Assembly (NCBI GenBank): GCA_021789895.1
Contig: JAJYIU010000009.1
Coordinates: 1 to 64,000 of the forward strand
Source: Acidobacteriota bacterium
GTDB taxonomy: Bacteria > Acidobacteriota > Terriglobia > Terriglobales > SCQP01
DNA: 64,000 bases
Direction: 5' to 3'
Shown: positions 20,448-33,292 of the stretch, one piece after another
Layout: each line of letters starts with the position of its first letter
Position numbering within the stretch: position 1 is the stretch's first letter
Position numbers and translations under genes: made by a program
Notes under the pieces: model-generated
What the model saw: the letters and a program-made list of their open reading frames with translations, nothing else
What the model was told of the DNA's origin: nothing
The model's database searches: none

Positions 20448-22976
20448 TCATTGCCGCTGCTGTGGCCGGACGGGCTTGACCGGCTTGGCGGGCTTGACCG
20501 GTTTGACCGGCGGGGCGGGTTTGACCGGATGGGCAATACCGGTGCGCATGGCGCGTTGCAGCAGTTGTTGAAGTTGCCGCCGCATGCTCTGCTGCCGCGC
20601 GCGCAGCGCCCGCATACGGCGCTGAAAGCGGGACTGGATGCGGGCCATCTGCTGCTGCATTTGCCGCTGGGCGAGCGCCATTTTTTGCTGCATCTCGGCC
20701 CAGTTATGGCGGCGCAGCCGCTCCATGCCCGCCCGCGCCTGCGCCATCTGCTGCGCATAACTCCTTTGCCACTGGCTTTGCCATTGCGCCTGGGCGCGCT
20801 CGAACTGCTGCTGCGCGGCCGCCATGCGGCGCTGCGCCGCCTGCATCTGCGCTGCGGCCGCGGCCATGGATTGCTGCCATTGCTGCCGGGCGCGCTCCAT
20901 TTCTTTTTGCCACTGCTGCCGCGCCTGCGGTGTGCCGGGCGCGCTGCCCGGCGGCGGCGGGATTTGCGCCAGGCTCGGCTGCCCGCCGGAAAAGGAGGGC
21001 ATGGCCAGGCGCTGCCGCTGCAATTCAGTCAACGCTTGCTGCATCGCCTTTTGCCCGGCCTGCAGTTGCGACTGCAACTGAGCGCGCGAGAGCCACTGCT
21101 GCCGCTGCAACTGGAGTTGCAATCCGGCCAGCGATTGCTGCCATTTTTTTTGGCCGGCCATGAGCTGCGCCTGCAACTGGCTGCTGGAAAGCCACTGCTG
21201 GCGTTGCAGCCGTTTTTGTATGCGGGCCAGCGATTGCGCCAGCAAAGCCTGCCCGGCTTGCGACTGCCCTTCCAGATGCTCGAGCATGTGCTGCGGGCTG
21301 AGCAAGGAGGGAGGGACGCCGGGGCTCCAGGAAAAATGCATGCTCATGGGAGCGGAGAGGCCGGCAATGATTCTGCTTGCCGCCTTCAGCACCTTCGGAT
21401 CGCGGATGATGTAGCTTTTGCCGCCGCTGCGAAACCATAGATATTCGCCCGCTGGCGCGGCGTGGCCGTTGATGGCGGCGAGGGCGCGCACATGCAATTT
21501 CCCCGCGCGGTAACTCACGCGGCCGCTGGAAAAAGTGAAATGGCGAGTATGCAGCACATAGGCGCTAACGGCGGGCTGGGAGAGGGGATGCGGCCGGGGC
21601 GCCGATGGCCGCCGGGCGCCCGGCAGTGCGGGTGCGGGCGTAGCGCGCGGCGCGGCGGCGGCCGGAGGATGGCCGGTGAACTTTTGGCCGGCCGCCTGCG
21701 ACGCCGCCGGTTTCCAAGCCGACGGCCGCAGGGCCGCCGGCTTGACCGCGCCCAGGTGCAGACCGGCCAGCGAGTAAATCAGAGGGCCGGCCACGATCGC
21801 GGCTAGACGGGCGCCACGCCTTCCGGCCGGCGGCGGCGCCGGCTCCAGCAGGCATTCCAGCCGCCGCGCCATGCGGCTAGGCTGCGCCAGCGGCGACTCT
21901 ACGCCGCGCCCGGGCCAAGTCCAGGCCCAGGGCTGCGGCATGCGCAAGCGCTCGATGAAGCCCAGCAGCATGGCGGCATAATCCGCCGCCGGCGCGCCAC
22001 TGGCGACGGCGGCCTCGTCGGCCGCCAATTCCGATAATTCGTGCAGCCGCCGGTCGAGCCACCAGCTCAGCGGATTGAACCAGAACAGGCAGACATGCAG
22101 GCCGCTCAGCAGCCGGTGCAGGTAATCGCGCCGGGCAATGTGCGCCAGCTCGTGCGCGAGCACCATGCGCAACCTGGCCTCATCCCAGGCGCCGCAGTCA
22201 GCCGGCAGCAACACCACCGCGCGTGGCCAGCCGGTGGTCAGCGGCGCCGGCGCGGCGGCGATGCGCAGCGAAGGAATCCACTGCAAGCCCAAGCGCCGGC
22301 ATTCTTGTTCGAGCACCTGGCGCGCCAGCGGCAGCGCCGCGTTTTTTCCGGAGCGCGTCAGCCGGCGGCTCAAGATCCAGGCTCCCAGCCAGCGCAAGCC
22401 TAGCAATGCGGCAATCGCCAGATAAAGCGCGAACCCGATCTCACCCAGCAGCGGCCAGAAGCCCGGCGCCGGGCGCGGCGCCCCGCTGGCAAGCGTTGCC
22501 GGCGCAGCCGGCAAACCGGCATGGCTGCGCGCGGGGCTGGAGCGGGAAGGCGGCGGCGGGGTGGCAAAGCCGGCATCCATCGCGCCGGCCGGCGGCAGTT
22601 GCGATGCCGGCAAATTTCCGAGAAAGGCATGCTTCAGCTTTGACGAAATTCCTGCAGGTTGACTTGCCGGAATCCAGGCCGGCGCGGAGAGGGGGGCGAC
22701 CGCGGCGAGCGGCGCGGCCGCGGGCGCCGGCGCGGCGGCCGGCGCCCGGGGGGCCGAGAAAGGCCACGGCACCGCCAGGCGATAGCCCGGCAGCCAGGAG
22801 AGGAACGGCATCAGCAGGGCGGCGTAGAGCAAGCCGCGCCACCAGCGGGAAAGCGTGGCCGCCGGCCAGCGGCGGCGGTGCAGCCATAGCGCCAGAATCA
22901 GGCCCAGCATCCCCGCCCGCAGCGCCGGAAGCGCCAGCCAATGCCAGAAGCGTTCCATCCAGATAGGGGAAAGCAT
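20448..22976 (-). CDS. BlaR1-type M56 membrane peptidase with Gln-rich repeat tail
   Basis: A zinc membrane peptidase expected to sense an envelope signal and inactivate the BlaI-type repressor encoded just upstream. The 842 residues have N-terminal TM helices, the zinc motif HELAH (His275, Glu276, His279) and the third-ligand region ELSELAADEA. The penicillin-binding sensor domain of true BlaR1 is absent. Instead, residues ~480-840 are very rich in Gln, Arg and Met and probably coiled-coil. Two 33-residue tandem repeats around 575-645 share LQRQQWLS and QAGQK/MAGQK words, and the end is a Pro/Lys/Val repeat. A good AAGGAG site precedes the ATG, 63 bases after blaI. Confidence 0.88.
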   Translation of the reverse strand: MLSPIWMERFWHWLALPALRAGMLGLILALWLHRRRWPAATLSRWWRGLLYAALLMPFLSWLPGYRLAVPWPFSAPRAPAAAPAPAAAPLAAVAPLSAPAWIPASQPAGISSKLKHAFLGNLPASQLPPAGAMDAGFATPPPPSRSSPARSHAGLPAAPATLASGAPRPAPGFWPLLGEIGFALYLAIAALLGLRWLGAWILSRRLTRSGKNAALPLARQVLEQECRRLGLQWIPSLRIAAAPAPLTTGWPRAVVLLPADCGAWDEARLRMVLAHELAHIARRDYLHRLLSGLHVCLFWFNPLSWWLDRRLHELSELAADEAAVASGAPAADYAAMLLGFIERLRMPQPWAWTWPGRGVESPLAQPSRMARRLECLLEPAPPPAGRRGARLAAIVAGPLIYSLAGLHLGAVKPAALRPSAWKPAASQAAGQKFTGHPPAAAAPRATPAPALPGARRPSAPRPHPLSQPAVSAYVLHTRHFTFSSGRVSYRAGKLHVRALAAINGHAAPAGEYLWFRSGGKSYIIRDPKVLKAASRIIAGLSAPMSMHFSWSPGVPPSLLSPQHMLEHLEGQSQAGQALLAQSLARIQKRLQRQQWLSSSQLQAQLMAGQKKWQQSLAGLQLQLQRQQWLSRAQLQSQLQAGQKAMQQALTELQRQRLAMPSFSGGQPSLAQIPPPPGSAPGTPQARQQWQKEMERARQQWQQSMAAAAAQMQAAQRRMAAAQQQFERAQAQWQSQWQRSYAQQMAQARAGMERLRRHNWAEMQQKMALAQRQMQQQMARIQSRFQRRMRALRARQQSMRRQLQQLLQRAMRTGIAHPVKPAPPVKPVKPAKPVKPVRPQQRQ

Positions 22977-23039
22977 GATTGAACTCCTTCACGCGGCGGC
23001 GGCACTCATGAAAGAATGCCGGCAGCCATCGAATTTGCG

Positions 23040-23483
23040 CTATCCGCCGGTTTCGCCGCCGCCGGGCGACAGCGAGTGCGGCTTCGCCCGTTCCCCCGAG
23101 CGCTGCTTGATGCGGCGCGCCAGCCGCTCCAGCTCGGCCGGATCCAGGCCTTCGTGCTCGACCAGCCCGACCAGCAACTGCTCGACCGAGCCGCCGCAAA
23201 AGCGTTCGAGCACCTGGCGCGCCGCCGCCGCCGCCACCGCTGGCCGCGGCTGCCGCGCTTCGTAAATGAACGTCCGGCCTTCCAGCCGGTGCCGGCAATA
23301 GCCCTTTTCTTCCAGCCGGCGCAGGATGGTGCGAATGCTCGAATCCTTGAGCGTGCGCAGCGGGCGAAGTTGTTCCCGGCAAGTCTCGGCGGTCAGGGCA
23401 CCGCCGCGCCAGAGACAATCCATCACCTGCTGTTCAAGTGGGCTCAGGGCAGGCTGGGCGGAGGGGGATTTGGTGCGAAACAT
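23040..23483 (-). CDS. BlaI/MecI/CopY family transcriptional repressor
   Basis: A 147-residue winged-helix repressor: residues ~13-75 form the DNA-binding domain (LSPLEQQVMDCLW, DSSIRTILRRLEEKGY) and the rest the dimer domain (VLERFCGGSVEQLLVGLVEH). It precedes the M56 peptidase on the same strand, the normal BlaI-BlaR1 arrangement. The ATG lies directly against a TACA/TGTA operator with no ribosome site before it, suggesting a leaderless or near-leaderless message and autorepression. Confidence 0.93.
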   Translation of the reverse strand: MFRTKSPSAQPALSPLEQQVMDCLWRGGALTAETCREQLRPLRTLKDSSIRTILRRLEEKGYCRHRLEGRTFIYEARQPRPAVAAAAARQVLERFCGGSVEQLLVGLVEHEGLDPAELERLARRIKQRSGERAKPHSLSPGGGETGG

Positions 23484-25374: not shown

Positions 25375-25408
25375 AAAAAACGGCGGCCGGACAACGGGTC
25401 CGGCCGCC
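25375..25408 (-). terminator. Intrinsic terminator of cupredoxin/haem-porin operon
   Basis: On the minus strand a perfect 10-bp GC-rich stem (25408-25399 with 25391-25382, 7-base loop) is followed immediately by G and six T (25380-25375). It begins 34 bases after the haem-porin stop. This is the clearest Rho-independent terminator in the window. Confidence 0.88.
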
Positions 25409-25441
25409 AATTCCGTCCTAGAGGAGGCTCATTTTATTTAT

Positions 25442-26788
25442 TTAAAACATCAGCCAGAAATTCAAATACACGGTGTTGTTATCGCTGGCATTCCGGCCGG
25501 CGCCGTCGTAATTGGTGGAGGCGCCATTGAATTTCGTGAAGCCCAGGTAATAGGCTTCCAGCTCGATGTTCTGCACCGGCCAGTAGCCGAAATGGAGCAG
25601 GTAGCCGGTGCTTTGTGGGCTGCCGTTGTTGCTGCCGTTGACGGCGCCGGTGGGATACAGGGTGGGGTCGGCGGTGCCGTTGGTGGCGAAAGCGCCGCCG
25701 CCGGCGTTGTAGCGATTGCCGAAATGGTAGATGCCATCGAGCTTGAAGGTGTGCAGCTTATGTTGCGCGAGAGCGGCGTTGCCGGCGGCGTAGGTAGCGG
25801 CCAGGTTTGAACTCTCGTGGATGTAGGTCGTGTGCAGGGTCAGAGTATCGCTGCCGAGGTGGCGTTCGTACTGGGCATCGGCGGCGGCATCGGTGTAGCG
25901 GTCCTCGGTTCCGCCGATGGTATTGGGGAAGCTGGCGACGTGCAGGCCGTAGGTGCCGATTTCGAGGTAGTTCAGGCCGTTACCCCAGGTAGTCTGGAAG
26001 GCGCCGCGCCAATAGGGCGCCACGCCGGAGATGTTGATGCCGAAGTTTTTGCCGTCGGGCGGCTGCGGGCCGCCGATATGCATGGAGCGATAGACGGTAA
26101 AGTCGCCGTAGAAGTGATGGTTATACATGGCGTAGGCGCCCACGCCGCCGACATCCTGCGCCAGGCCGCCGTCAATCAGGGTCGCGGCCATGGGCGAAGG
26201 CGAGCTGTCGGGCCCCGACCAGGGAAAGCCCCAGGCCGGCGTATCGTTCCACAAATCCTCGACGGTGGGATTGTTGTTCAGATCGAGCCCGTACACCAGC
26301 GGGGTGCTGCCAAAATAATGAATGTTGGCGTAGCGTATATCGGTGTTATCCATCGAGAAATGGTCGCCTTGGGTGTTATAGGTGACCTGTATGAAGCTGC
26401 CCATGTGTTCGGTCAGTTCGCCCGCCAGGAACAAGCTCAACTGCTGGGGAAACTCGATATTGCCGTTTTGGGTGCCAGGCTGCGCCTTGCGGGTGAGCGT
26501 GTCGGAGATTTGAAACATCGCCGAGAGCGGCAGATTGCCGTTCAACCACAGCCCCGCCTGTTTTTTGGTGCCCGGCTGCGAGACCTTGGGCATGATTTTT
26601 CCGCTCAAGGTATAGCCATTCAGTTTGAACTGGCGGCCGAAGTCGGTCAGTTCGGGAAAAGTGATGTGGCAGCGGCTGCAGGGCAAGCCGGTCTGGCGGG
26701 CGAAGCTGGGCACCGCCCAAGCCGCGCCCGAGGCGGCCATCGCCAGCAGCGACACACCTATCCATTGCCTCACCATCGTCGTACGCAT
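25442..26788 (-). CDS. Cyc2-like fused monohaem cytochrome c-porin
   Basis: A predicted outer-membrane protein placing one c-type haem at the mouth of a beta-barrel. A signal peptide (to about residue 25) is followed at once by VPSFARQTGLPCSRCH, with the haem site Cys37-Cys40-His41. The FARQTG-CXXCH-FPELTDFGRQFKLNGY arrangement is the signature of the Cyc2 family of Fe(II)-oxidising cytochrome-porins. The remaining ~390 residues alternate as amphipathic beta strands and end in Phe (NFWLMF), the usual barrel-assembly signal. The 448-residue length suits the family. It is downstream of a cupredoxin gene in the same unit. Iron oxidation is plausible but unproven; related proteins occur in organisms not known to oxidise iron. 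Confidence 0.85.
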   Translation of the reverse strand: MRTTMVRQWIGVSLLAMAASGAAWAVPSFARQTGLPCSRCHITFPELTDFGRQFKLNGYTLSGKIMPKVSQPGTKKQAGLWLNGNLPLSAMFQISDTLTRKAQPGTQNGNIEFPQQLSLFLAGELTEHMGSFIQVTYNTQGDHFSMDNTDIRYANIHYFGSTPLVYGLDLNNNPTVEDLWNDTPAWGFPWSGPDSSPSPMAATLIDGGLAQDVGGVGAYAMYNHHFYGDFTVYRSMHIGGPQPPDGKNFGINISGVAPYWRGAFQTTWGNGLNYLEIGTYGLHVASFPNTIGGTEDRYTDAAADAQYERHLGSDTLTLHTTYIHESSNLAATYAAGNAALAQHKLHTFKLDGIYHFGNRYNAGGGAFATNGTADPTLYPTGAVNGSNNGSPQSTGYLLHFGYWPVQNIELEAYYLGFTKFNGASTNYDGAGRNASDNNTVYLNFWLMF

Positions 26789-26829
26789 GAGTCCTCCGGA
26801 ATACGAATCTTGAGAGGTTGCAGTCCGGG

Positions 26830-26857
26830 CGCAGCCGGGGCCAATTCCCCGGCTGCG
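26830..26857 (-). other. Intercistronic hairpin between cupredoxin and haem-porin genes
   Basis: CGCAGCCGGGG and its exact inverse form an 11-bp stem with a 6-base loop in the 87-base gap between the two genes. No T-tract follows on the minus strand, so it is more likely an RNA-stability or processing element setting the ratio of the two products than a terminator. Confidence 0.65.
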
Positions 26858-26875
26858 TTCGGAATGTTCATTTAA

Positions 26876-27496
26876 TTATTTGCTCAAATTGAAATTGACT
26901 GTAGTTGTACTCGAACCCACCGCGACCGTACGGGTCTGCTGCTGCCGCCCTTCATGCCAGGCGACGACGCGGTAGTGGCCCGCCGGCAGCCCTTTGAGTT
27001 GATACGAGCCGGAGCGCTGGGTGGTGGTGAAATACTGCGTGGGCACGACCACGATATAAGCGCTCATATCCGGGTGCAGCGTGCAGCGCAGGTGCACCAC
27101 GCCGGGATGGGTGAAACGGAAGCTCAGCGTCTGGCCGGGAGCGGCATTGCCCAGGTTTTTCGCCAAAGCGCGATTGCCGCCGATAGCTTTCCAGGAGACG
27201 TTGTGCTTGACCGTATCGTTATTGTGGAACACCACCGTCGCGCCCACCGGCACGGCCAGCACGTGCGGCTGAAAAGCCGTCCATTTCTGGTCCAGGGTGT
27301 AGGTTTTGGATGCGACCGGGGTGTAGTGCGCGGGCCCGATGGCCCAGACGACTGAACGCGGCGGCGGGGGCGGAAAGGCCCCGGGCATTGCCTTCGGCGG
27401 CGGACCGCCGTTTACCTTGCCGTGGATGCCGCCGGTGGCACCCAGCGCCGTCAAACTTAACAACGACAGTACTGCTAAATTCCGTAAGGTACGCAT
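26876..27496 (-). CDS. Exported cupredoxin with carboxypeptidase-regulatory-like domain
   Basis: A predicted periplasmic type-1 copper protein. The 206 residues start at an ATG with a strong AGGAGGA site; upstream in-frame Met codons lack one. A signal peptide (core LAVLSLLSLTALGA) is followed by a cupredoxin fold split around a Pro-rich segment. Candidate copper ligands are His98 (VKHNVSW), Cys138, His141 and Met144 (CTLHPDM), a complete blue-copper set with the compact C-X2-H-X2-M loop. The C-terminal ~50 residues (GSYQLKGLPAGHYRVVAWHEG) form a carboxypeptidase-regulatory-like beta domain. First gene of the unit with the haem-porin, so it may accept its electrons. Confidence 0.86.
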   Translation of the reverse strand: MRTLRNLAVLSLLSLTALGATGGIHGKVNGGPPPKAMPGAFPPPPPRSVVWAIGPAHYTPVASKTYTLDQKWTAFQPHVLAVPVGATVVFHNNDTVKHNVSWKAIGGNRALAKNLGNAAPGQTLSFRFTHPGVVHLRCTLHPDMSAYIVVVPTQYFTTTQRSGSYQLKGLPAGHYRVVAWHEGRQQQTRTVAVGSSTTTVNFNLSK

Positions 27497-27550: not shown

Positions 27551-27566
27551 TGCATGAATTTTGCCA
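27551..27566 (-). promoter_or_regulatory. Sigma54-like promoter of cupredoxin/haem-porin operon
   Basis: Minus strand reads TGGCAAAATTCATGCA, matching TGGCAYG-N4-TTGCW at 9 of 12 defined positions with the invariant GG and GC exactly ten bases apart. The predicted start is near 27540, giving a 44-base leader. The neighbouring divergent operon encodes an NtrC-family sigma54 activator. Confidence 0.6.
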
Positions 27567-27655
27567 ATCTCCGCCGCACGGCATTGGATTTCCGACGGCC
27601 ATCATATTTTCCTAATAAATACAGGCATTTGAGCGCGCCGCAAAGAATCCGAGGC

Positions 27656-27796: not shown

Positions 27797-29362
27797 TTGA
27801 TAGTGCGCGTGTTCTGGACGACTTGGCAGAGGGCGTGCAGGTTAGCGCTGTGGCCTTTGAGGCAATGGGATGATAGTTTTAGAAGCATCGTGCAGGCACA
27901 CGCACTCGATTCGCCGGTTCTTTGCCCCTATCTTGCATGGCTGCGGTTCTCGCCGGATGGCGGCGTGCTGGCGGCCAGTCCCGCCGCCGCCCGGCTGCTG
28001 GGCTACGAGCAGCCGGAGGAATTGGCAGAGCGGCATCCCCTCGGAGCGGAGAGCTGGCAGCGCTGGCAGGAATGGGTCCGGCAAGCGCCCGGCCAGGCTT
28101 TGGAATTATCGCTGCTTACCCGCAATGGCGGCTCGATTTGGGTGCTGATGAGCGGCTGCCAGTCCGGCGCTGAGATTACAGAAGGATGGCTGGTGGAAGT
28201 CACGCATTACAAGCAACAGGAAGCCACGCTGGCGCGGACTCTGCTAAGCGGGCGGGAGCATGAGCAGGCGGAGCGGCGGTTTCGCGCGCTGATGGAATCG
28301 GCTCCGGATGCGATTCTGATCAGTTCCGGTTCAGGGCGCATCCTGATGGCGAACCAGCAGACGGAAAAGCTGCTGGGCTGTCCGCGTTCGGAGATTCTGG
28401 GGCGCATGATCGAAGATTTCATGCCCGAGCGCTATCGCGAACATCATCGCGAACTGCGCTCGGGCTATAATCGCGAGCCTCGAACCCGGCAGATGGGGAC
28501 CGGGCTGGATTTATATGCGCGGCGTCGGGACGGCCGGGAGATTCCGGTAGAAATCAGCCTCAGTCCGATTGAAATTGACGGCGAATGGGTGGTGGCCAGC
28601 GCCATCCGCGATGTCAGCGAGCGCAAGCGCGCCGAGGCAGCGATGCGCCGGCTGCATCAGTTGGAGCTGGCGCAGACCGAACACCTGGCCAGCCTGGGGG
28701 AAATCGCGGCTGGACTGGCGCACGAGATCAAGAACCCGCTGGCGGGGATCGCGGCGGTGCTGGAAGTGCTGGCCGGCAGCTTTGGCGACGCCACCGAGGC
28801 GCGCGAGTTGATGTCGGAAGTGCAGCAGCAGGTGGTGCGGATCCGCTCGATCGTGGACGAGCTGCTCAATTACGCGCGGCCCCGGCCGCCGGCGCTGGTG
28901 CCCGGCGACTTGAACGAAGCGGTGGCGCGGGCGGTGCAGTTCGCGCTGCCGCGGGCGCAACTGCGGCAGTTGCGGCTGACCTTCCTGCCGCGGCAATTGC
29001 CCGAGCTGGAGCACGATCCGGAGCAGATCCAGCGCATGGTGCTCAACCTGGTGATGAACGCGATCGAGGCGCTGCCGCCGGGGGGGCAGATAGACGTCCA
29101 AACCCAGTTTGAAGCCGCCGCCGAGGCGGCTACCATCAATGTGCGCGACGACGGCCCCGGCATCGCGCTCGAGGAGCAGGAAAAGATCTTTCGCCCGTTT
29201 TACACCACCAAGGGCAAGCACGGCACCGGGCTGGGGCTCTCGCTCTGCCGGCGGATCGCCGAATTACACGGCGGCTCGATCCAGGTTCACAGCCGTCCCG
29301 GCGAAGGCAGCCGTTTCGAGGTGAAGCTGCCGCTGCATATTCCCAGCGAGGCGGCGCGGTGA
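27797..29362 (+). CDS. Soluble PAS-domain sensor histidine kinase
   Basis: Sensor partner of the NtrC-type regulator whose GTG start overlaps this stop by four bases. The ~521 residues contain no membrane helix, so the kinase is cytoplasmic. A PAS-like region (~45-140) is followed by a clear PAS domain (~160-275; ESAPDAILISSGSGRILMAN), a HisKA helix with phospho-acceptor His309 (GLAHEIKNPL) and a HATPase with N, G1 and G2 boxes (NLVMNAIEAL, DDGPGIA, KHGTGLGLSL). It resembles NtrB-like kinases. The start is uncertain: TTG 27797, GTG 27803 and GTG 27809 are all possible and none has a good ribosome site. Confidence 0.9.
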   Translation: MIVRVFWTTWQRACRLALWPLRQWDDSFRSIVQAHALDSPVLCPYLAWLRFSPDGGVLAASPAAARLLGYEQPEELAERHPLGAESWQRWQEWVRQAPGQALELSLLTRNGGSIWVLMSGCQSGAEITEGWLVEVTHYKQQEATLARTLLSGREHEQAERRFRALMESAPDAILISSGSGRILMANQQTEKLLGCPRSEILGRMIEDFMPERYREHHRELRSGYNREPRTRQMGTGLDLYARRRDGREIPVEISLSPIEIDGEWVVASAIRDVSERKRAEAAMRRLHQLELAQTEHLASLGEIAAGLAHEIKNPLAGIAAVLEVLAGSFGDATEARELMSEVQQQVVRIRSIVDELLNYARPRPPALVPGDLNEAVARAVQFALPRAQLRQLRLTFLPRQLPELEHDPEQIQRMVLNLVMNAIEALPPGGQIDVQTQFEAAAEAATINVRDDGPGIALEEQEKIFRPFYTTKGKHGTGLGLSLCRRIAELHGGSIQVHSRPGEGSRFEVKLPLHIPSEAAR

Positions 29363-30843
29363 AACCTTCCATCCTGATCGTGGACGACGAGAAGCTGCTG
29401 CGCTGGCCGCTGCGCCGCAAATGCGAGGCGTGGGGCTATGAGGTGGAGGAAGCCGCCGATTGCGCCGCGGCGCTGGCGGCGGTGCGCGCCAATTCGCCCG
29501 ATCTGCTGCTGCTCGACGTGCGGCTGCCGGATGGCAACGGGGTGGAACTGCTGCGCCGGCTGCGCGACGAAGGCAGCCTGGCGCCGGCGGTGATGATCAC
29601 CGCCGACCCGCGCATTGACGACGTCAAGAGCGCCATCCGGCTGGGCGCCTACGATTACCTGACCAAGCCGATCGATTTCGAAGCGCTGCAGATCACCATC
29701 GCCAACGCGCTGGAAACCAGCCGGCTGCGCCAGGAAGTGGGCACGCTGCGCGATCAGATGCAGCGCCAGACGGCGCCGTTGGAAGTGATCGGCGCCTCGC
29801 CCAAGCTGCTGACGCTGATCGGGTTCGTGCGCAAGGTGGCCGCCAGCGAAGCCAGCGCCATCCTGATTCAAGGCGAGAGCGGCACCGGCAAAGACCTGTT
29901 CGCGCGGGCGCTGCATGCCGGCTCGGCCCGCCGCGACCGTCCCTTTGTCGCCATCAACTGTTCCGCCATCCCCGAGCAACTGCTCGAATCCGAGCTTTTC
30001 GGCCATGAGCGCGGCGCCTTTACCGACGCAAAAACCGCGAAGAAAGGCTTGCTGGAGAGCGCCGACGGCGGCACCCTGTTTCTCGATGAAATCGGCGAGA
30101 TGCCGATGCTGCTGCAAGCCAAACTGCTGCGGGTGCTGGAGGAACAGAACTTCCGCCGCGTGGGCGGGCTGAAGGATATCGTGGTGGACGTGCGCATCAT
30201 TGCCGCCTCGAACCGCAACCTGGAAGACGCGGTGCGCGCCGGGCAATTTCGCCAGGATCTGTTCTACCGCCTGATGGTGATACCGATCTTCATTCCTCCG
30301 CTGCGGCAGCGGCGGGAAGACATCGAACCGCTGAGTCAATTTTTTGTCGCCCACTATAACCGGCGATTCCGGAAAAACATTCGCGGGCTCAGTCCGGAGG
30401 CGCGCGAGTTGATGCAGGCGTACGACTGGCCGGGCAACGTGCGCGAACTGAAGAACGCCATCCAGCGGGCGATGATTCTGGAAGACGGGGAATGGATCCG
30501 GCCGACTTACCTGCCGCTGCACAGCGAAGGCGCGGAACTGATGACCTCGAAGGAAGCCTTTCCCAACGCGTCCGCGGCGGCGAGCAGCCCGGAATGGCAG
30601 CAACTGCCATCGGGGCGGATGCTGCCGAAACTGGAAATTCCCGCGTCCGGCACCTCGCTGGAAGAGATGGAACGCGCCATGGTGGAGCAGGCGCTGCTGC
30701 AGGCCAACGGCAATCAATCGAAAGCCGCCCGCCTGCTCGATATCAGCCGCGATGCGCTGCGTTACAAGATGAAGAAGTTCCACCTCGACGGCGGCGGGGA
30801 GCACGAGGAGCCCGCCGCGGCGGCACAACCCCACCCGCTCTAA
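29359..30843 (+). CDS. NtrC-family sigma54-dependent response regulator
   Basis: A transcription activator for sigma54 promoters, controlled by phosphorylation from the kinase upstream (GTG start, four-base overlap). Of 494 residues, ~1-120 are the receiver domain with phospho-acceptor Asp53 (LLLLDVRLP). Residues ~140-375 are the AAA+ domain with Walker A GESGTGK (172-178) and GAFTDA (219-224), a common variant of the sigma54-contacting GAFTGA loop, then LFLDEIGEM. The FIS-type helix-turn-helix near the C-terminus is NQSKAARLLDISRDALRYKM. Sigma54-like sites occur in the gap immediately upstream of this operon and at two more places downstream. Confidence 0.95.
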   Translation: MKPSILIVDDEKLLRWPLRRKCEAWGYEVEEAADCAAALAAVRANSPDLLLLDVRLPDGNGVELLRRLRDEGSLAPAVMITADPRIDDVKSAIRLGAYDYLTKPIDFEALQITIANALETSRLRQEVGTLRDQMQRQTAPLEVIGASPKLLTLIGFVRKVAASEASAILIQGESGTGKDLFARALHAGSARRDRPFVAINCSAIPEQLLESELFGHERGAFTDAKTAKKGLLESADGGTLFLDEIGEMPMLLQAKLLRVLEEQNFRRVGGLKDIVVDVRIIAASNRNLEDAVRAGQFRQDLFYRLMVIPIFIPPLRQRREDIEPLSQFFVAHYNRRFRKNIRGLSPEARELMQAYDWPGNVRELKNAIQRAMILEDGEWIRPTYLPLHSEGAELMTSKEAFPNASAAASSPEWQQLPSGRMLPKLEIPASGTSLEEMERAMVEQALLQANGNQSKAARLLDISRDALRYKMKKFHLDGGGEHEEPAAAAQPHPL

Positions 30844-30892: not shown

Positions 30893-31609
30893 TCAAAGCC
30901 AATGCCGCAGATCGCGACCGACCAGGAAAGCGAGGCCGGCGGCACCGAGGCCGATGGCGAGGGTTTCCAGGGCGGAGCGCCACCAGGCCTGTTCCGACCA
31001 GCGGCTTTTCCCCGCCCCGATGGCAAAAAACATGAGCGCGGTCACGCCGGCGGCGAGGCGCAGCGGGTGGCTAAAATCTCCGAAATAGGGCAGCAAGGGC
31101 ACCAGGCCGCAAAGCACGAAAGCGATAAATGTACTGGCGCTGGCGCGCAGCGGCGAGCGCTGCGCCCGGGCCAGGCCATATTCCTCGGTCAACATCAGGC
31201 TTACCCATTGTTCCCGGTTGCAGGTTATGACCTCGACGGCGCGTTCCAGCTCGGCGCCGTTAAAACCTTTGGATTGAAAGATCTGGCGGACCTCTTCCCG
31301 TTCGCCTTCGGGGTGCAGCTCGATATGGCGGCGCTCGCGCGCCTGCAACCGCTGATAATCGTCGCGCTCGGCTTTCGTGCCCAGATAATTGCTCGCCGCC
31401 ATGGAAAAGCCGTCAGCCAGCACATTGGCGCAGCCCAGCAGCAAAAGCACTGAACGCGCCACATCCCCACCCGCCGAACCGGCGACTACCGCCATGGTCG
31501 TCACCGCGCCGTCAAGGCCGCCGTAGAGCCAGTCCCGCAGATAATTGGCCGCCGGCCGCGCCAGCCGTTGCGCAATCGCCTCGTAAGTGTGCTCGTGCTC
31601 CAACTGCAT
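30893..31609 (-). CDS. VIT1/CCC1 family iron/manganese transporter
   Basis: A membrane protein expected to move Fe(II) or Mn(II) out of the cytoplasm. From the ATG at 31609 it has 238 residues. The family signature around helix 1-2 (DWLYGGLDGAVTTMAVVAG, then GCANVLADGFSMAASNYLG) is followed by the cytosolic acidic metal-binding helices (ERRHIELHPEGEREEVRQIF) and three more TM helices. The in-frame ATG at 31645 would add 12 residues; neither start has a strong ribosome site. It is divergent from the iron-sulfur repair gene, sharing a TGAC-N4-GTCA dyad upstream. Confidence 0.88.
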   Translation of the reverse strand: MQLEHEHTYEAIAQRLARPAANYLRDWLYGGLDGAVTTMAVVAGSAGGDVARSVLLLLGCANVLADGFSMAASNYLGTKAERDDYQRLQARERRHIELHPEGEREEVRQIFQSKGFNGAELERAVEVITCNREQWVSLMLTEEYGLARAQRSPLRASASTFIAFVLCGLVPLLPYFGDFSHPLRLAAGVTALMFFAIGAGKSRWSEQAWWRSALETLAIGLGAAGLAFLVGRDLRHWL

Positions 31610-31735
31610 GGCGGGCTTCCAAGTATGCGGAAACACTATTTGCATAATGAAGCTAACACATCGCGGCCCAGCCGGCGCAGAATGGAATGCCGCCGCCGGC
31701 GGCATGTCCGCCCGGCTATGGAAACGGCCGGCGGC

Positions 31736-31749
31736 ATGACGGACGTCAT
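31736..31749. promoter_or_regulatory. FNR/CRP-type dyad between VIT and RIC genes
   Basis: ATGAC-GGAC-GTCAT is a perfect dyad with the NTGA(Y)-N4-(R)TCAN architecture of FNR-family sites (consensus TTGAT-N4-ATCAA). Its centre is about 61 bases before the RIC start codon. The FNR-like regulator encoded at 35519-36346 has an FNR-type recognition helix, so it is a candidate ligand. No clear -10 box is seen at the class II position. Confidence 0.45.
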
Positions 31750-31803
31750 ATTGAATCGGCGGCAAGCATCCAAAACTGGTATTGAGGACTGAGGATCGGG
31801 AAC

Positions 31804-32538
31804 ATGCCATCCACCCTTGATCGAAATCAAACCCTGGGCGAGCTGGTAGCACGCCAGCCGGCCGCCGCCCCCGTGCTCGAGCATTATCAGATGGACTACT
31901 GCTGCGGCGGCTCAACCAAGATCGAGGCAGCCTGCTCCAGCGCGGGCATAACGGTCGAACAATTGAGCCGGGAAATAGCAGCGGCAGCGCCGGTGAACGG
32001 GACCACCGCAACCGATTGGACTCAGGCGGCACTGCCGGACCTGATCGCGCATATCGTCGCAGCCTATCATCAACGCTTGCGCGCCTGGCTGCCGGAGCTC
32101 GAAGCCCTGGCAAGCAAAGTAGTGCGCGCGCATGGAAGCCAGCACGCAGAATTAGAGTCCCTCCGGCTTCAGCTTGAAAGCCTGGCGACCGAGCTTCGCT
32201 CGCACATGGAAAAGGAAGAATATATTCTCTTCCCGTATATTGAACAATTGGCGCAGCTTACTCCCGGGCAGGCGGGGCATGCCCGGCCGTCGTTCGGCAG
32301 CTTGCGGCATCCGTTGAGCGTCATGCTGCGGGAGCATGCCGACGCCGGCGAGGCCCTGGCGGCCATGCGGCGTCTGTCGGGCGATTATGTAATGCCGGGC
32401 GATGCCTGCCCCTCCTGGCGCAGATTTTATTCAAGCCTGGCGGAGCTGGAAGCGGAGCTGCATGCGCATATACATCTGGAAAACCAGATTCTGTTTCCCC
32501 GTGCGGAAGAGCTGGAGAAAGCGGTAGAGGACGCATAA
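31804..32538 (+). CDS. RIC family iron-sulfur cluster repair di-iron protein (ScdA/YtfE-like)
   Basis: Repairs Fe-S clusters damaged by nitric oxide or oxidants by means of a hemerythrin-like di-iron site. Of 244 residues, ~1-55 are the ScdA N-terminal domain with the paired Cys33-Cys34 (MDYCCGG) and ~75-240 the four-helix hemerythrin domain. The ligand segments are AYHQRLR, SHMEKEEYILFP, RHPLSVMLREHADAG and HAHIHLENQILFP; all expected His/Glu ligands are present. Its promoter region carries an FNR-type dyad. A paralogue lacking the N-domain lies 193 bases downstream. Confidence 0.93.
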   Translation: MPSTLDRNQTLGELVARQPAAAPVLEHYQMDYCCGGSTKIEAACSSAGITVEQLSREIAAAAPVNGTTATDWTQAALPDLIAHIVAAYHQRLRAWLPELEALASKVVRAHGSQHAELESLRLQLESLATELRSHMEKEEYILFPYIEQLAQLTPGQAGHARPSFGSLRHPLSVMLREHADAGEALAAMRRLSGDYVMPGDACPSWRRFYSSLAELEAELHAHIHLENQILFPRAEELEKAVEDA

Positions 32539-32574
32539 AAAGAAACGCGAACGCGTTAAAACACGCATGCGGGT

Positions 32575-32590
32575 TGCGGCATATGCCGCA
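32575..32590. promoter_or_regulatory. 16-bp perfect palindrome, possible enhancer site
   Basis: TGCGGCATATGCCGCA lies between the two hemerythrin-type genes, about 75-90 bases upstream of the sigma54-like promoter at 32664. It is positioned as an activator site for the NtrC-type regulator, but could equally be an RNA hairpin after the RIC gene. Confidence 0.4.
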
Positions 32591-32663
32591 GCCGCGGTGG
32601 AGAATTACCCATTTTTTCATGATTTCGAAAAGTAAAACTTAACCGCACCAAAAGTTTCCCGGC

Positions 32664-32679
32664 TGGCATCCTATATGCA
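32664..32679 (+). promoter_or_regulatory. Sigma54-like promoter of hemerythrin paralogue
   Basis: TGGCATCCTATATGCA matches TGGCAYG-N4-TTGCW at 10 of 12 defined positions, with GG and GC ten bases apart, in an AT-rich gap. The predicted start near 32690 gives a leader of about 42 bases containing a GGAGG ribosome site. It is one of the two best sigma54 matches in the window. Confidence 0.65.
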
Positions 32680-32731
32680 GTTTCAATTTACAGACTGCGC
32701 CGCTACACAGCCTGCATGACGGAGGCCGGCG

Positions 32732-33292
32732 ATGAAATCACCTCCTACCAGCGCTCCATTTCACGGCAGGACAGAGGACGAACTGGCCGCGGTGCTTGGT
32801 TTTCTGCTCAAATCTCATCTTCACCTGCGCGGCAGCTTACCACAGCTCATGCGGCTGGCTGAGAACGTGGTCGAGCATCATGTGATGGATCACCCTGAAC
32901 TGGATGAAATCTGGACCTGCGCGGCCCGCCTGAATTCCAAGTTGCTGATTCACATGGATAAAGAAGAAAAGGTGCTCTTTCCACGCATCGAGCGGCTGCT
33001 GGCGACACTCGCGCCGGTCTCGCCCGAGCCGGCGTGCGACAACTTGCCCGCCTGCATTGAACAGTTGGCGCGTGAACATGCAGAGATCGAAACCTCGCTC
33101 TCCGGGATACGGCATGCTTCCGACGGCTACCGGCTGCCGGAGGGAGCCTGCACCTCCTGGCGTAATCTTTATCGCCAACTCGAAACTTTGGAAGCGGAAC
33201 TGCACCGCAATTTCGGGCTGGAAGAAAACATACTGATTCCCCTGGCGGCACGGAAGGAAGCAGCGCAGCAGTCGCTCTCCACGTCCGCCTAA
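32732..33292 (+). CDS. Hemerythrin-domain RIC paralogue lacking one iron ligand
   Basis: A 186-residue paralogue of the RIC hemerythrin domain, without the CC-containing N-domain. Matching segments are KSHLHLRGSLPQL, IHMDKEEKVLFP, REHAEIETSL and a final LEENILIP. In the last helix the RIC pattern H-x-x-x-E (His at the i-4 position to the Glu) is replaced by Asn160 before Glu164, so one di-iron ligand appears lost. It may bind one iron, use a different ligand, or act as a sensor/partner of the full RIC. A sigma54-like promoter precedes it. Confidence 0.87.
   Translation: MKSPPTSAPFHGRTEDELAAVLGFLLKSHLHLRGSLPQLMRLAENVVEHHVMDHPELDEIWTCAARLNSKLLIHMDKEEKVLFPRIERLLATLAPVSPEPACDNLPACIEQLAREHAEIETSLSGIRHASDGYRLPEGACTSWRNLYRQLETLEAELHRNFGLEENILIPLAARKEAAQQSLSTSA

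Follow-up and report, generated by a model that had tools for sequence, protein, structure and literature searches.

A conserved gene pair of a cupredoxin and a Cyc2-like haem-porin behind a sigma-54 type promoter in Acidobacteriota, a candidate module for electron uptake

The 64,000-nucleotide stretch of acidobacterial DNA analysed here (the window; contig JAJYIU010000009.1) carries a gene for a Cyc2-like fused cytochrome-porin (cyc2) together with one for an exported blue-copper protein (cup), and the pair recurs behind the same type of promoter in relatives of the same family. We hold it somewhat probable, at roughly 58%, that the two proteins serve inward electron transfer, in which a donor in solution, most probably Fe2+, would supply electrons that reach the respiratory chain by way of the haem and then the copper. 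The features concerned are collected in Table 1.

Table 1. Coordinates of the gene pair, its putative control elements and regulators, and the haem-cupredoxin hybrid genes. Positions are those of the window unless a locus is named.
Feature	Position	Strand	Details
Intrinsic terminator after cyc2	25381..25409	-	12-bp stem, T6
Cyc2-like fused cytochrome-porin	25442..26788	-	448 aa; ATG; signal peptide; one CxxCH; 16-strand barrel predicted
Cyc2 signature AVPSFARQTGLPCSRCHITFPEL	26648..26716	-	residues 25-47; motif per PMC8406198
Intercistronic hairpin	26824..26863	-	17-bp, GC-rich, no T-run
Exported cupredoxin with C-terminal CarboxypepD_reg domain	26876..27496	-	206 aa
Type-1 copper ligands H98, C138, H141, M144	27065..27205	-	C-x2-H-x2-M loop; present throughout the true cupredoxins examined in this family
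Sigma-54 type -24/-12 element TTGGCAAAATTCATGCA	27551..27567	-	54 nt upstream of cupredoxin ATG
PAS-containing histidine kinase	27797..29362	+	Pfam; divergent from pair
NtrC-family sigma-54 activator	29359..30843	+	Pfam: receiver, AAA+, Fis HTH; GAFTDA loop
Haem-cupredoxin hybrid, own genome contig 46	L198:7215-8138
Haem-cupredoxin hybrid	L122:6788-7831
Haem-cupredoxin hybrid	L124:6794-7813
Haem-cupredoxin hybrid	L125:2969-3988

The Cyc2 motif has been described as AxPxFAR[QK][TY] followed by CxxCH and, four residues downstream, by PxL, a combination termed unique to Cyc2 (Keffer et al., 2021; PMC8406198). The haem-porin of the window carries all three parts (AVPSFARQT at residues 25-33, CSRCH at 37-41 and P45-x-L47), and the reading frames of haem-porin and cupredoxin both lie exactly where a preliminary description had placed them, on the minus strand. 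It also exceeds the length of at least 365 aa expected of an exported Cyc2, with a hydrophobic N-terminus that ends, by eye, in AWA. The same description had read a terminal Phe as a sign of a barrel and had proposed a structure model as a check; the protein does close with ...LNFWLMF, and an AlphaFold2 model drawn from 56 homologues (mean pLDDT 80.9), which contains no haem and is of low confidence in the N-terminal haem segment (residues ~20-85), predicts 16 strands between residues 88 and 447. This model matches general and phosphate-selective porins, OprO/OprP included, at a Z of about 22 (Foldseek, VIA-align), and the strand number given for the Cyc2 barrel is likewise 16 (PMC8406198). 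Pfam and NCBIfam gave no match to the haem-porin, and a PDB sequence search found no Cyc2. Proteobacteria have full-length homologues with identities as low as 33-42%, and both the haem-porin and the cupredoxin are under purifying selection (dN/dS 0.12-0.13 against the nearest relative), which together argue that the signal is not due to chance. The proteobacterial sequences compared by similarity search matched at 28-40% identity (E 8e-39 to 3e-79). On motif, length and predicted barrel we therefore term the protein Cyc2-like, the compared sequences being uncharacterised homologues. It shares with the Cyc2 proteins of A. ferrooxidans and Mariprofundus and with Cyt572 of Leptospirillum a signal peptide, the motif, a length above 365 aa and a 16-strand barrel that matches OprO/OprP (PMC8406198), but it differs from them in belonging to an acidobacterial clade, in its sigma-54 promoter and in having a cupredoxin-CarboxypepD_reg protein as its partner instead of Cyc1 or another cytochrome c.

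The partner matches the Pfam families Copper-bind (1.4e-6, residues 69-150) and CarboxypepD_reg (1.6e-10, residues 146-204). Its model (pLDDT 87.6) has the cupredoxin sandwich fold, with plastocyanin and amicyanin at a Z of about 14 (rmsd 1.6 A over 86-88 residues), and the His/Cys/His/Met set of a type-1 copper site is invariant and was found as the preliminary description had listed it. The ligand loop of rusticyanin is longer, C-x4-H-x4-M. The spacing C138-x2-H141-x2-M144 observed here rules out a rusticyanin, so that the parallel drawn earlier with rusticyanin stands for the role of blue-copper partner and falls for the loop and fold; judged from its sequence and predicted structure, the cupredoxin is plastocyanin/amicyanin-like. 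It shares the C-x2-H-x2-M spacing with amicyanin, but it also carries the fused CarboxypepD_reg domain, reaches only 32.2 bits against the cut-off of 110.2 for the amicyanin equivalog TIGR02657, which rejects that identity, and has no amine dehydrogenase among the neighbours seen. The CarboxypepD_reg domain, which had been called unusual, is part of the standard architecture of this cupredoxin family in Acidobacteriota.

The haem of the porin might instead serve another substrate, such as copper, phenolics or amines, with the cupredoxin acting in the manner of amicyanin as carrier for a separate periplasmic dehydrogenase. We regard this as quite improbable: amicyanin and plastocyanin are indeed the closest solved cupredoxins, and similar cupredoxins on proteobacterial plasmids are annotated as 'methylamine utilization protein', but next to the pair in the window no dehydrogenase gene was seen, and what recurs beside the cupredoxin is a haem-porin, belonging to either of two divergent classes.

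The cup gene precedes cyc2 on the same (minus) strand with 87 nt between them, and the order sigma-54 box, cup, hairpin, cyc2 and terminator delimits a bounded bicistronic unit. The promoter element follows the GG-N10-GC pattern typical of sigma-54 sites. A TTGGC-N8-TGCW box lies 36-54 nt ahead of the cupredoxin start codon at all nine cup-cyc2 pair loci, three of which come from one genus; a scripted screen recovered the same box at 3/82 of the remaining cyc2 loci, and in random stretches at a rate of 0.9%. The element is thus conserved at pair promoters in a genome that encodes RpoN, as expected of a sigma-54 regulon. A sigma-70 promoter call (27567-27539) was discounted, as it overlaps the sigma-54 element and scores at the shuffled background. 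A GC-rich stem also follows the cup stop codon at the other pair loci examined, at a similar place and with a different sequence; we would guess that the hairpin helps to raise cupredoxin above porin output. The pair promoter is probably activated by the PAS kinase and NtrC-type regulator encoded next to it, as their position suggests, and homologues of both are linked to the pair in five relatives. The NtrC-type regulator and three relatives have GAFTDA in place of GAFTGA in the sigma-54 contact loop.

Downstream of the regulators (30896-33292) lie a VIT1-family iron/manganese transporter gene and two hemerythrin-domain genes, one of them RIC-type (ScdA_N), with VIT1 and hemerythrin counterparts at the same place in the nearest relative. 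Sigma-54 control, these neighbours and the lack of a detectable RuBisCO gene in the genome would all suit a module for iron or metal stress, in which oxidation of Fe2+ outside the periplasm limits Fenton damage, electrons pass to an oxidase without energetic use, and VIT1 and the hemerythrins respond together with the pair. This we judge rather unlikely, as the VIT1/hemerythrin linkage is found in the closest relative and only weakly elsewhere, and most members of the family adjoin energy-conserving complexes.

A one-off association is ruled out by the family-wide retention of the pair, which occurs in the same order and on the same strand in eight relatives of the same family; the preliminary description had named its absence from all relatives as grounds for rejection. 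The sampled haem-porins of these pairs form one clade with an SH-aLRT of 100, in a quick tree for which SH-aLRT was the sole support measure. Homologues of the haem-porin were found in 27/60 near-relative genomes and Cyc2-like genes in 81/297 sampled Acidobacteriota, so that a Cyc2-like gene in an acidobacterium is ordinary and not the rarity first supposed. Two signature classes can be told apart, FARQTG, to which the window's protein belongs, and FAR[K]Y. The best 80 of 577 matches in a scan of genome contigs were all from Acidobacteriota except one labelled Gammaproteobacteria; among these 80 most are MAGs, and the named genomes include the isolate Acidipila rosea and Granulicella. Bin names can be read as pointing to a mine-waste origin for many of the matching genomes. 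The contig labelled Gammaproteobacteria (REEB218; L176) carries a cyc2 of acidobacterial type and may be a misassigned MAG.

The company that cyc2 keeps in Acidobacteriota is largely respiratory. At 79 of 92 distinct FARQTG cyc2 loci a redox gene lies at most four genes away: a bc complex at 51, a cupredoxin at 25, a c-type cytochrome at 21 and an alternative complex III at six, so that complex III of either kind is present at 57/92. These counts come from a simple ORF caller, which failed to call at least one pair known to exist (L044), and the contigs differed in length. The 13 loci with no redox neighbour within four genes, several of them on short contigs, were counted against the uptake reading. 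Six loci combine cyc2-cup with a bc complex (L150, L157, L189, L190, L148 and L172), most with an intervening GltD-like FAD/4Fe-4S oxidoreductase that might serve to reduce NAD(P)+, and cyc2-cup-GltD-Rieske-cytb operons occur. At L051 (genome G008; identical to L121) cyc2 is followed by pentahaem cytochrome, molybdopterin-type, Fe-S and NrfD proteins, an alternative complex III set, parts of which are also close to cyc2 at L044, L052, L117, L127 and L149. In the sister family, divergent FARKY haem-porins have a cupredoxin immediately downstream at 5/9 fetched loci. Among the proteobacterial plasmid homologues (six distinct regions), a c-type cytochrome lies within ~0.5 kb downstream in five and ~2 kb upstream in the sixth, and one region also has a HiPIP. 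The differing neighbours therefore suggest that haem-porins of one kind work with a variety of soluble carriers, which in Acidobacteriota are often copper proteins. The plasmid CP084173.1 (L110), labelled Acidithiobacillus ferrooxidans YQ-N3, has the cyc2-region layout and tblastn score of Acidiphilium cryptum pACRY03, which reflects either transfer or contamination from co-culture.

Neighbouring genes prove neither the donor nor the direction of flow. A bc complex or alternative complex III could just as well send quinol electrons out through the two proteins of the pair, with Fe(III), humics or some other external compound as acceptor. Such outward transfer we think unlikely: the protein has a single haem only, characterised Cyc2 proteins run inward, and the haem of A. 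ferrooxidans Cyc2 has a high potential (560 mV at pH 4.8, as quoted in PMC5371394), which is ill-suited to reducing acceptors other than Fe(III) at low pH.

For the inward direction and for Fe2+ as donor we rely on what is known of the Cyc2 family (PMC8406198) and of the A. ferrooxidans pathway (PMC10654088; PMC4725956), and infer by analogy that the pair would act as an inducible electron-uptake module. The 16-strand barrel would lie in the outer membrane and the one c-type haem on the N-terminal segment, a placement of the haem borrowed from Cyc2. A soluble one-electron donor, most likely Fe2+, would enter the pore and reduce the haem, from which the type-1 copper protein of the periplasm would accept the electron; this protein, presumably docking to the porin, would fill the slot held in Proteobacteria by a c-type cytochrome such as Cyc1. 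From there electrons could reach the inner-membrane chain, downhill to haem-copper oxidases or uphill through a bc complex or alternative complex III. These last steps are a reconstruction, since the bc complex and oxidases of this genome lie on contigs other than that of the pair. One sigma-54 promoter would drive both genes in response to a putative trigger. As the genome shows no RuBisCO, uptake would offer a heterotroph supplementary energy or a defence against Fe2+.

Parts of this arrangement have precedents. The rus operon of A. ferrooxidans reads cyc2-cyc1-cup-coxBACD-rus (PMC10654088) and likewise encodes an outer-membrane Cyc2 alongside a periplasmic blue-copper protein, whereas the operon described here has two genes only, lacks cyc1 and coxBACD, and encodes a copper protein with an extra domain that is not rusticyanin-like. 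The acidophile Ferrovum myxofaciens also has a Cyc2-like protein with a cupredoxin as proposed intermediate (PMC4725956), but in this betaproteobacterium they are described as pathway members and not as a two-gene sigma-54 operon. Acidobacteria have been placed near Cyc572 in a similarity network (PMC10654088). A search of the open-access literature, mostly titles and abstracts, returned no description of a cup-cyc2 pair in Acidobacteria, and a cupredoxin pairing common to a whole acidobacterial family seems to be undescribed. The barrel family and the combination of Cyc2 with a copper protein in Acidithiobacillus and Ferrovum are thus known already; new are the plastocyanin/amicyanin-like partner with its extra domain, the retention of a two-gene sigma-54 operon throughout a family and the widespread association of cyc2 with complex III genes in Acidobacteriota.

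Uncultured organisms are the source of most Cyc2 sequences, and the role of Cyc2 outside recognised iron oxidisers is open (Keffer et al., 2021; PMC8406198). In the isolate Acidipila rosea DSM 103428 a full-length homologue lies in a cyc2-Rieske-cytb operon, which makes the proposed uptake testable in culture, and the conserved sigma-54 promoter offers a direct route to the inducer. Soils are rich in Acidobacteriota (PMC7661733); if the operon takes up electrons from Fe2+, heterotrophs would run part of the soil iron cycle.

The genome itself encodes further copies of both partners. Another haem-porin, encoded on contig 13 and 62% identical to the first, has no redox neighbour and was likewise counted against the uptake reading. 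The additional cupredoxin (contig 54; 74-75% identity) lacks a sigma-54 box. One Rieske-cytochrome b/c unit (contig 70), three haem-copper oxidases (COX1) and RpoN were also found. In the window, a BlaI-like repressor and a BlaR1-type M56 peptidase are encoded at 20448-23483.

The genome also contains a haem-cupredoxin hybrid. Such hybrids, of 307-347 aa, align to the cupredoxin on both flanks, have lost all four copper ligands and carry an inserted cytochrome c domain (CBB3-type). Near full-length hybrids were found in this genome and four others, all of the window's family, plus one partial copy, among the 60 genomes searched. It is conceivable, though we advance it tentatively, that inducible uptake operons leading from a Cyc2-type haem-porin through a plastocyanin-like copper protein to a bc complex or alternative complex III are numerous in Acidobacteriota and have gone unrecognised, that iron-assisted heterotrophy is common in acid soils, in peat and in mine waste, and that one family has rebuilt its carrier, with an inserted haem domain in place of the copper site. 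In three genomes the hybrid gene is oriented divergently from a second cyc2; the copy in the window's own genome adjoins genes for a pentahaem cytochrome and a molybdopterin-type protein that resemble ActA/ActB.
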